Shown here piece after piece: positions 34,979 through 38,701 of a stretch of 45,517 bases of DNA; the first letter of the stretch is position 1; each line of letters opens with the position of its first letter. Both the position numbers and the translations under genes were made by a program. Below the pieces are notes generated by a model. It did no database searches and was not told where the DNA came from. It worked only from the letters and a program-made list of their open reading frames with translations. Where the stretch lies: positions 1 to 45,517 of the forward strand of contig JAJYNJ010000049.1 in the NCBI GenBank assembly GCA_021786385.1. Reading direction: 5' to 3'. This DNA comes from Chloroflexota bacterium. GTDB taxonomy: Bacteria; Chloroflexota; Limnocylindria; Limnocylindrales; CSP1-4.

Positions 34979-36415
34979 TCAACGCAGCTCCACGATCCGG
35001 AAGTGGCGGTCGCCGACGGGCGCGCGCACCACCACGTCGTCACCGGCCCGCCGGCCGAGCAGCGCCTGGCCGAGCGGCGATGTGTTCGAGATACGCCCTT
35101 CGTCGGGCCGCGCTTCGCTCGACCCGACGATCGTGTAGGTCTCCTGCCCGTCGGATGACTCGACGACGACGGTCGAGCCGAGCACGACCGCGTCGTTCTG
35201 CGCTGGCGCCTCGATGATCGAGGCATTGCGGATCATGGCCTCGAGCTGCGCGATGCGTCCTTCGGCGAAGGATTGTTCCTTGCGCGCGGCTTCGTAGTCG
35301 GCGTTCTCGCTCAGGTCGCCGAGCTCGCGGGCTGCCCGAACACGCGCGATGATCTCGGGCCGCCGCACCTGCACGAGCTCGGTGAGTTCCTCCTTGAGGC
35401 GCGCGAGACCCTCGGCGGTCACGTGGGTCGGTGGCGCTTGGCGGGGCGAGGTCGGCAGCGGTGTGCCAGTACGGCGCGGGCGGGCCGGCGCTACGACGGA
35501 ACTCGACGTGAGGTGGGACCGGGCGCCGCTGGACGGCATCGGCCGTCGGCGCGATGGTGGGGATGCGGCGCCACCGCGCGCCTGGTCGGAGGCCGCGCGC
35601 GCCTGGCCTGAGGCCGCGCTCGTGCGGCCCGCGGCTCCGGTCGTCCCGTCCGTGATCCCGCTGGTGCGGCTCGGGCTGGTCGTGCTGCCTGTCGTCCGGC
35701 TCGCCCCGCCCGTCGCTCGGCTGCGCGGTGCCATCGGATGCTCGCTGGCGACGGCCTTGCCCGGCGGCAGCGTGACGACCCGCCGGTCTTCCGGCTGTGC
35801 GGGCTCGGAGGGCGCGGTCCGCAGGTCGCCGGTGATCCCGTGTTCCTTGGGAAGGCCGGTCGGTATCGCCATGTTGGCGAACGGGACGACGACGGTCGGG
35901 TCGTGGAGCGCCTCGACGGAGGCCGGATCGACCGCCTCGGCAAAGGCCTCCAGGAGGGCGTCCTCGTACTCCTCGGGAGCGTCCGTCTCGGCCCACCAGA
36001 CGCGCGCCTGCTCGAGCCCGCGCAGCGTCTTGAGCCAGCGGCCTCCGGGGTAGGGCGCCGGATCGCCGAGGGGCGTGCGCACCAGTTCGTCGATGCGACG
36101 CCCGATCGACCCGTCGGTCGAGCCGACATACAGCACCACCTGGTCGGGCAACCAGAAGCCGCCGAGGCGCTGGGCGAGCTCCTTGCCGGTCGGTCGGTGG
36201 CCGTCGAGCTCGAGTGTGGGAACTCGCTCGATCCAGGTGCCGACCGGCGAGAGATCGATGGGGGCCCGGAGCACGGGCCCGGGCAGCTCGATCAGGTAGA
36301 CGCCCGGGCGCGCGCTGCGGACCGGCGAGCCCCAGCGCACAGGGCCATCCGCCAGGAGACCGACGCTGCGCAGGAGATCGACCGCGCCTGCCGTCCGCCT
36401 CGTCCCGTCTGCCAC
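34979..36415 (-). CDS. GIY-YIG nuclease-like domain fused to transcript cleavage factor GreA
   Basis: One uninterrupted 478-residue frame joins two domains. Residues 36-165 look like GIY-YIG: RPGVYLIELPG, VVLYVGST (YVG 96-98), Arg107 in RRIDEL and a Glu-rich helix EEYEDALLEAFAEAV with a candidate catalytic Glu. Residues 200-325 are a Ser/Thr/Arg/Ala-rich linker. Residues 326-478 are a full-length GreA: a coiled coil with the acidic tip GDLSENADYEAARKEQ, then the FKBP-like domain (NDAVVLGSTVVVE to RISNTSPLGQALLG). GreA rescues backtracked RNA polymerase by RNA cleavage. GTG 36415 has GAGGTGG upstream, and no internal start is better supported, although separate initiation near HVTAEG cannot be excluded. 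The fusion suggests a DNA- or RNA-processing activity carried to stalled polymerase. Confidence 0.85.
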   Translation of the reverse strand: MADGTRRTAGAVDLLRSVGLLADGPVRWGSPVRSARPGVYLIELPGPVLRAPIDLSPVGTWIERVPTLELDGHRPTGKELAQRLGGFWLPDQVVLYVGSTDGSIGRRIDELVRTPLGDPAPYPGGRWLKTLRGLEQARVWWAETDAPEEYEDALLEAFAEAVDPASVEALHDPTVVVPFANMAIPTGLPKEHGITGDLRTAPSEPAQPEDRRVVTLPPGKAVASEHPMAPRSRATGGASRTTGSTTSPSRTSGITDGTTGAAGRTSAASGQARAASDQARGGAASPPSRRRPMPSSGARSHLTSSSVVAPARPRRTGTPLPTSPRQAPPTHVTAEGLARLKEELTELVQVRRPEIIARVRAARELGDLSENADYEAARKEQSFAEGRIAQLEAMIRNASIIEAPAQNDAVVLGSTVVVESSDGQETYTIVGSSEARPDEGRISNTSPLGQALLGRRAGDDVVVRAPVGDRHFRIVELR

Positions 36416-36657: not shown

Positions 36658-37590
36658 TTACAGCCCACGGTAGCGGTCGGTCAGCCGTGCCTCGAACTCG
36701 TCGGCGATCGCCTCGGCCGTGCGCGTCACGAAACGGTCGACGAGCCGATCCAACAGCGGCTGCCGGAGCCTGACGCGCGACGCCTTCGCCGGGACCCCCG
36801 CGAACGCGGCGGCGACCTCGACCGCGCGCTCCAGATCGCCGATCTCGTCGACCAGGCCGAGCTCCAACGCCCGGCGGCCGAGCCAGACCTCGCCCGTGGC
36901 CAGTTCGCGGACGCGTTCCACGGGCATCTCCCGGGCGGCTGCCACGCGCGCGAGGAACGCGTCGTAGATCGCGTCGACGAGCTCCTGTTCCTTGGCGCGT
37001 TCCTCGTCCGACTCGTCGCGCCAGGGCGCGCCCATATCCTTCAGCCGACCGGCTTTCTGGACGCTCACGGTGACCCCGGCCCGATCGAGCAGTCGTGGCA
37101 CGCGCGGCCCGGCGGAGATGACGCCGATCGAGCCGACGATGGCGTTGGGGTTGGCCAGGATGCGGCGCGCCGCGAGCGCGGCCAGGTAGGCGCCCGAGGC
37201 GCCGGTGCCCCGGATCGCGGCCACCAGCGGCTTGGCCCGCGCGAGCCGCTCGAACGCGAGGAACAGGTCGTCCGAGGCGGAGGCCGAACCGCCGGGCGAA
37301 TCGATGTCGAGCACGACCGCCGGGACACGGCGCGACTCGCGGAGACGGGCTGCGAGCTCCACGAGGACGCTGCTCCGACCGCCCCCGGCGATCGGCCCGT
37401 AGAGGCGTACCACGGCCACCCGGCCGAACGGGAAGCGTACGTGCAGACCGGGGAGGCGCCTCGCGAGCCGCTCGCGCAGGGTCGTGAGGCCCACCCCGGG
37501 GGACGCGTCGTCCCTGGCGGAGTGCTCGGACCGGAACGCGGACGGTTCGGCACCGCCGGGCTGGTCGGGCTGGAGCGACCTGACGCGCAT
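36658..37590 (-). CDS. sppA: Peptidase S49 (SppA-like signal peptide peptidase)
   Basis: The 310-residue serine protease should degrade cleaved signal peptides at the membrane. The Ser/Lys dyad is intact: Ser132 in IRGTGASGAYLAA and Lys184 in KAGRLKDMGAPWR, 52 residues apart as in B. subtilis SppA. SPGGSA and VGSIGVI motifs are present. No N-terminal membrane anchor is visible, which is unusual for SppA. ATG 37590 follows a TAGGCT -10-like box after 8 nt (leaderless pattern). GTG 37656 would overlap the upstream permease gene by 11 nt and add 22 residues. Confidence 0.87.
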   Translation of the reverse strand: MRVRSLQPDQPGGAEPSAFRSEHSARDDASPGVGLTTLRERLARRLPGLHVRFPFGRVAVVRLYGPIAGGGRSSVLVELAARLRESRRVPAVVLDIDSPGGSASASDDLFLAFERLARAKPLVAAIRGTGASGAYLAALAARRILANPNAIVGSIGVISAGPRVPRLLDRAGVTVSVQKAGRLKDMGAPWRDESDEERAKEQELVDAIYDAFLARVAAAREMPVERVRELATGEVWLGRRALELGLVDEIGDLERAVEVAAAFAGVPAKASRVRLRQPLLDRLVDRFVTRTAEAIADEFEARLTDRYRGL

Positions 37591-37645
37591 CGTGCAGGAG
37601 CCTACCGCATCCGCGCCGCGGGGTGCCTGCCCGGGCAACGATCGC

Positions 37646-38701
37646 TCAGGGTTCACCGCCGCGGGGCGCGTCGGGGTAGAGCTCGGCCAGCGTGACGTTC
37701 AGCGCGGCGGCAACCGGGACCGCCAACAGGCCGCCCAGCACGCCCCAGGCGGAGAGGCCGACCAGCACCGCAAAGATCGTCACGACCGGGTGGAGGTGCA
37801 CGGCCCGCCCGATCACCACCGGCATCACCAGCTGATCCTCGACCTCGCGCACCACCAGGTAGACGCCCAGCACCACGAGCGCGAGTTCGGTGCCGCCATG
37901 CGAGAAGGCGACCGTGCCGGCGATCGCCGCCGCCGCCACGGGCCCCACCAACGGGATGATCTCGAGCACGCCGCTGACGAGCGACAGCGCCAAGGCGTAC
38001 GGCACGTGGAGTACGGGTCCCAGCACGGCGTAGAGCGCCAGCGCGACCAGCAGGATCAGCGCGAGCTGGCCGCGCAGCCAGCGCCCCAGGACGAGGTGGA
38101 TCCGCGCCGTGAGCGTCGCGGCGCGGGTCCGCTGGTCGGGCTGCAGGAAGCGCAGCGCGAAGGCCCAGAAGCGCTCGCCGTCGAGCAGGAGGTAGAACGA
38201 GACGATCACCACCAGGACGCTCTGCACGGCGGCGTCGCCCACGAGGGCCGCGATGTGCAGCGCGTCACGCGGCGTGGCCAGCGATTGCGCGATCGCGTCG
38301 TTCAGTTGGCGCGCGATTTCGCCGACGGTGATCCGCCGCGTCCCGATCTGGATGGCATCGTGGCCGAGGACCGCGCGCAGCGTTTCCGCCAGCGCTGCGG
38401 CACCGCCCGTGGCGAGTTCCTCGAGCTCGCCGATGAGTTGGCCCGAGACGATCCACACCGCGACCCCGATCACGACCAGGGTGACGCCGTAGAGGGCCAG
38501 CAGGACGAGCACACGCGGCAGGCGCGTGCGCACCTCGAGTGCGTCGATCAGCGGGCTGAAGGCATACGCGAGGACCGCGGCGATCACGAACGGCGCGAGG
38601 ACGTCGCGGGCCAGCCACAGCACGACCAGTGTCGCGATCGCCAGCCAGACGAGTCGGCGGCGCTGACCGCCCGGAAGGGGAGCTGCGGGATCCAGCATCA
38701 C
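37646..38701 (-). CDS. AI-2E family transporter (UPF0118)
   Basis: The 351-residue membrane protein has the AI-2E/UPF0118 pattern: an N-terminal helix pair (LVWLAIATLVVLWLARDVLA, FVIAAVLAYAFSPLIDALE), a long amphipathic central region, and the C-terminal signature IIPLVGPVAAAAIA with VVREVEDQLVMPVVIG. Relatives export autoinducer-2 or exchange Na+/H+; which applies here is unknown. GTG 38701 and ATG 38698 are consecutive codons, and a TAAGCT -10-like box 6 nt before the GTG favours a leaderless start there. It probably shares an mRNA with the S49 peptidase gene downstream. Confidence 0.9.
   Translation of the reverse strand: MMLDPAAPLPGGQRRRLVWLAIATLVVLWLARDVLAPFVIAAVLAYAFSPLIDALEVRTRLPRVLVLLALYGVTLVVIGVAVWIVSGQLIGELEELATGGAAALAETLRAVLGHDAIQIGTRRITVGEIARQLNDAIAQSLATPRDALHIAALVGDAAVQSVLVVIVSFYLLLDGERFWAFALRFLQPDQRTRAATLTARIHLVLGRWLRGQLALILLVALALYAVLGPVLHVPYALALSLVSGVLEIIPLVGPVAAAAIAGTVAFSHGGTELALVVLGVYLVVREVEDQLVMPVVIGRAVHLHPVVTIFAVLVGLSAWGVLGGLLAVPVAAALNVTLAELYPDAPRGGEP

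Follow-up and report, generated by a model that had tools for sequence, protein, structure and literature searches.

The window, the whole 45,517-nucleotide stretch of Chloroflexota DNA analysed here, carries on its reverse strand, at positions 34979 to 36415, a single open frame encoding a 478-residue protein that joins a GIY-YIG-derived domain, a linker and a GreA; homologous fused frames occur in 64 loci. The gene starts with GTG, a ribosome-binding GAGG lies about 8 nt upstream, and GC3 stays at 0.82-0.93 along the entire 478-codon frame, coding-like through the linker too. The N-terminal domain (N-domain) of about 200 residues spans residues 11-200 (35816 to 36385) and includes an insertion of roughly 49 residues between its GVY strand and its YVG strand (36140 to 36286), delimited in alignments A1 and A3. 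It is followed by a low-complexity linker of about 128 residues (residues 201-328; 35432 to 35815), with a net charge of about +12 and a GC3 of 0.82-0.87, and by the GreA part (34988 to 35422). The original prediction, that one frame runs from a GIY-YIG-like domain through a low-complexity linker to a complete GreA with its acidic tip, is borne out by the frame itself, by the Pfam and NCBIfam matches and by the positions of the motifs: GVY at 38-40, YVG at 96-98, R107 and a Glu-rich helix are all found in the translation where it had placed them. The likely metal-binding Glu of this helix is E151, and N181 lies within the motif PFAN.

Gre factors are usually regarded as small stand-alone proteins, and compared with GreA the fusion has about 330 extra N-terminal residues. 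Its C-terminal part is otherwise a full-length GreA (TIGR01462; PF03449 and PF01272) with the same two domains, all above curated cut-offs. The coiled-coil domain at residues 332-400 matches Pfam GreA_GreB_N with E 4e-27 (94.6 bits against a cut-off of 24.5), the globular domain at 406-476 matches GreA_GreB with E 1e-23 (83.1 bits against 26.9), and the C-terminal part as a whole scores 169.6 bits with TIGR01462 greA (cut-off 139). The closest solved structure is that of GreA, PDB 1grj (E 8e-32). Both acidic residues at the tip of the coiled coil are present, in the motif D367-L-S-E370 (35306 to 35317); their equivalents in E. coli GreA, D41 and E44, act on the Mg ion of the polymerase (PMC7527559). 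Larger proteins that end in a GreA are already known from NCBIfam PRK06330 (718 aa) and PRK14720 (906 aa), but these match only the GreA part of the window protein, and the N-terminal part described here is not among theirs.

An in-frame fusion conserved across one family

Using residues 1-198 of the N-domain as the query, we found it in 93 of the 107 genomes in the GTDB family to which the window belongs, that of 'Chloroflexi bacterium CSP1-4' (the 93 include genome G099, whose sole copy is a distant paralogue). It is present in 33 of the 34 near-complete genomes and in 25 of 27 genera, with identities of 43-86% across the family, a few distant paralogues excepted. The order's other family and the remainder of the class gave no N-domain, and when 400 genomes sampled from the phylum were searched, the matches outside the family were only weak ones, to stand-alone relatives.

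Relatives in which the two halves are always separate genes, a prospect raised by the original prediction, are not what a search of related genomes returned. Reading the loci in all frames, we found the N-domain and GreA in one open frame in 64 of 64 distinct loci having both parts intact. The linkers range from 49 to 140 residues across these loci and are rich in Ala, Pro, Arg, Gly, Thr and Ser. Because the frame has been kept 64 times despite such varied linkers, a chance long frame in GC-rich DNA can be ruled out, and so can an assembly chimera, given the N-domain's presence in 93 genomes. An internal start yielding free GreA is likewise disfavoured: a start codon with at least four Shine-Dalgarno bases lies near the junction in only 5 of the 64 loci, at scattered positions, and none is conserved before GreA. 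Three further copies (L007, L032 and L040) are cut off by the ends of their contigs, and an apparent frameshift in L079 proved to be a stretch of N in the assembled sequence. As judged from these reading frames, the fusion is confirmed as real and conserved.

Fold, ancestry and active site of the N-domain

AlphaFold2, run on 74 family members, returned a model with a mean pLDDT of 94.4 for the N-domain. The model places strands at residues 38-43 and 94-100, helices at 104-113 and 126-130, a strand at 138-143 and a helix at 147-161, with the insertion, which holds helices 55-64 and 77-85, between the two half-motif strands. The canonical GIY-YIG core runs beta-beta-alpha-alpha-beta-alpha, and the N-domain model matches it as beta1-beta2-alpha1-alpha2-beta3-alpha3, with GIY and YIG on two strands and R107 as the Arg of helix 1. 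The domain shares with the GIY-YIG superfamily (UvrC N-domain, R.Eco29kI, T4 EndoII, AtGRXS16) the core order, the GVY/YVG strands, the Arg in the first helix, the Glu helix and the terminal Asn. It differs from the superfamily in its insertion, in an active site that is eroded in most members, and in giving no direct match to Pfam or UvrC; NCBIfam, PHROGs and PADLOC gave no match either.

The link to known GIY-YIG proteins runs through an intermediate family. Sequence searching uncovered distant stand-alone proteins of about 160 residues (L073-L075), which have no Pfam or NCBIfam model of their own and belong to a stand-alone GIY-YIG-like family (with L173-L182) that is widespread on chromosomes and on plasmids, actinobacterial and other, and is annotated 'hypothetical protein'. 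A reverse search from one of them recovers the fusion N-domain with E 6e-7, and hhalign gives 99.0% (P 5e-18) between the N-domain and this family, its closest relative by profile, with the same GVY...YIG...R...E...PFAN plan and a shorter insertion. The stand-alone family in turn aligns with the UvrC GIY-YIG domain at 95.8% (P 7e-9), compared with 77% for a control pairing of UvrC with another GIY-YIG group and at most 4.4% for 40 column-shuffled decoys per profile pair. Since a direct comparison of the N-domain and UvrC profiles reached a non-significant 8%, membership of the superfamily rests on the intermediate family.

Structural comparison agrees with this chain, though weakly. Searched against the viral library BFVD, the N-domain model gave hits at prob 0.97, one of which (E 0.019) is named 'GIY-YIG domain-containing protein', and a PDB structure search gave no match. 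For the stand-alone family (model pLDDT 88.4), the best PDB matches were 2lwf (prob 0.54), the GIY-YIG domain of AtGRXS16 (PMC9071465), and T4 EndoII (0.20), neither significant alone. The GIY-YIG call that had been made for residues 30-170 was not refuted by these weak structural matches, and it is carried by the predicted fold in canonical order and by the two-step profile chain. We take the N-domain, on sequence profiles and the predicted model, to be GIY-YIG-derived. UvrC itself is a different protein: the fusion has no Pfam match to the UvrB-binding or RNase H/HhH domains after its GIY-YIG part, and a separate 621-aa frame with a GIY-YIG match in the same genome is probably UvrC.

The five catalytic residues tell a more divided story. 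All of them (Y40, Y96, R107, E151 and N181) are retained in the window protein and in 11 of 75 N-domains overall, the window protein included. R107 is kept in 74 of the 75, E151 in 47, N181 in 52 (lost in about 22), Y40 in 49 (Phe in 24) and Y96 in 44 (Phe in 29). Even within the window's genus, position 151 reads Ala, Gln, Ala and Ala in the four other readable members, and the tree calls for about seven changes at E151 and about seven at N181. Across the same 75 members, structural Trp, Gly and Glu positions of the N-domain are invariant, among them E43, W61, W88 and W140, and E148, E149 and D152 are nearly so. Unlike the fusions, the stand-alone family keeps its Glu, with which E151 aligns, and its Asn, with which N181 aligns, in 16 of 16 relatives read. 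For R.Hpy188I, the corresponding Glu has been proposed to coordinate the metal and the Arg to bind phosphate; this enzyme has Lys in place of the YIG Tyr, an example of the motif changes that are tolerated in some GIY-YIG enzymes (PMC2630997). Taken together, the alignments indicate that the fold is under constraint and nuclease chemistry mostly is not.

This pattern bears directly on the original proposal of a nuclease-like domain that brings cleavage to stalled polymerase, which is not supported as a function of the whole family. In such a scheme GreA would dock in the secondary channel while the GIY-YIG domain cleaves extruded RNA or DNA close by; the complete site of the window protein, the near-universal R107 and the stand-alone relatives with intact residues are all in keeping with it. 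Yet 28 of 75 members, those four congeners among them, lack the metal-binding Glu, 31 have another residue for the YIG Tyr and the Asn is missing as noted above, which makes an active nuclease an unlikely account of the fusion as a whole. Nuclease activity in some lineages is possible, given the window protein and the ten others with all five residues, and the nearly invariant E148, E149 and D152 could in principle replace E151.

Paralogy, tail variants and gene neighbourhood

The erosion of the GIY-YIG site has no counterpart in GreA, whose GDLxEN tip is kept in 60 of 60 fusions inspected; by these alignments the catalytically conserved half is GreA and not GIY-YIG. A second, stand-alone greA, whose existence the original prediction had left as a question, is present in the window's genome on contig C49, and most genomes of the family hold two GreA copies. 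In the GreA tree the fusion copies form a single clade (support 99/99) beside stand-alone GreA, and the family's stand-alone GreA groups outside it, with relatives from the class. Gre paralogues have changed role elsewhere, as Gfh1 and archaeal TFS4 did, and a second GreA clade that has diverged further and coexists with the housekeeping GreA would suit a regulatory or inhibitory paralogue whose N-domain controls or blocks access of GreA to the polymerase. The full conservation of the acidic tip is, however, not expected of a factor whose cleavage function is gone, and we hold this reading to be more doubtful still than a polymerase-delivered nuclease.

GreA is not the only C-terminal partner of the N-domain. 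Proteins from genera g3 and g11 carry, after the N-domain, a tail of about 70-80 residues in place of GreA (observed in L080, L081, L084-L087 and L034), which bears a weak resemblance to a winged helix (Pfam E 0.1-0.2), a call drawn from these weak matches and the tail's position and not from a structure. Seven of seven members with this tail keep E151 and N181 (Fisher p 0.04 and 0.09, respectively, against the rest, not corrected for relatedness). A paralogue in genome G016 (L064:1-615, reverse-complement coordinates) combines a GIY-YIG-like domain with a similar tail and is cut by the contig end. When the N-domain tree is rooted on the stand-alone family, L064 and then g11 fall outside the fusion group and g3 falls inside it, with support of 93/81 at the key fork. 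The tree suggests an ancestor with a GIY-YIG domain and a winged-helix-like tail that was replaced by GreA. As g3 lies inside the fusion group, where it represents either a reversal or a misplacement, this order of events is moderately supported.

No partner gene accompanies the fusion in every genus. A recurrent neighbour is a same-strand DEAD-box RNA helicase, seen in about 20 genomes of 10 genera (for example L131:2006-3616, L071, L047 and L078): nine of these genera have it about 1-4 kb upstream of the fusion, the tenth immediately downstream. In genus g23 (L131) the order on one strand is helicase, fusion, SbcD-like and SbcC-like, the last two being SbcD-like and SbcC/YhaN-like genes directly after the fusion at L131:4601-8272, named from sequence only. 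Upstream of the window's fusion, at 36658-38701 on the reverse strand, lie an S49 (SppA-type) peptidase and an AI-2E family transporter, which accompany the fusion in the same genus only. The recurrent gene order could reflect an RNA-processing partnership in which fusion and helicase act together on nascent RNA, but the helicase is absent near the window's copy and not adjacent in many other genera, and a common gene order may be inherited without function; we consider this partnership quite improbable. A role in defence or restriction, with GreA serving to locate transcribed foreign DNA, might be evoked by the plasmid-borne stand-alone relatives but is highly improbable given the core-genome distribution within one family and the lack of any PADLOC match, conserved partner gene or N-domain relative on viral contigs.

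Proposed role of the tethered GreA

The reading that we prefer, and to which we give an even chance, is that of a transcript-cleavage factor tethered by a docking domain that derives from GIY-YIG and is for the most part non-catalytic. The features that can be read from the sequences are the fusion, its conservation, its single clade, the GIY-YIG ancestry, the erosion of the active site and the retention of the GreA tip. In the proposed scheme the protein would be a GreA paralogue apart from the housekeeping GreA, its C-terminal half an active and otherwise normal secondary-channel transcript-cleavage factor. The N-terminal half, no longer cutting in most members, would dock a nucleic acid or a protein partner, and the flexible basic linker would join it to GreA, so that tethering keeps the fusion GreA close to particular sites or complexes. 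The gene would most likely have a single origin, in which GreA took over the place of the winged-helix-like tail in an older protein. We favour docking over a polymerase-delivered nuclease because the conserved catalytic residues are those of GreA.

That the N-domain binds something we infer from its fold, the linker and its descent. Its net charge (-8 in the window protein, with a family median of +1) is unlike that of a strong nucleic-acid binder and counts against docking on nucleic acid. In a broader version, the fusion would serve the whole lineage as a transcript-cleavage factor and, through its nuclease-derived domain, physically connect backtracked polymerase with nucleic-acid processing or repair, cutting nucleic acid at stalled polymerase in members whose active site is intact; this strikes us as improbable. 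If true, it would be a mechanism without precedent among described Gre factors. A search of the open-access literature, as a limited negative, found no paper with both GIY-YIG and GreA and nothing relevant on GreA domain fusions, in agreement with the original statement that no described system of this architecture was known.

One whole bacterial family has retained a GreA paralogue that is permanently joined to a domain descended from nucleases. The nuclease site has mostly decayed while the fold and the GreA tip were kept, a natural example of how a polymerase accessory could be recruited from a repair-type fold. The comparison also makes visible a putative domain swap, from winged-helix-like tail to GreA, and brings to light a GIY-YIG-like family that lacks annotation. 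If the N-domain binds DNA, RNA or a repair protein, the fusion would provide a direct bacterial link from the rescue of backtracked polymerase to nucleic-acid processing.
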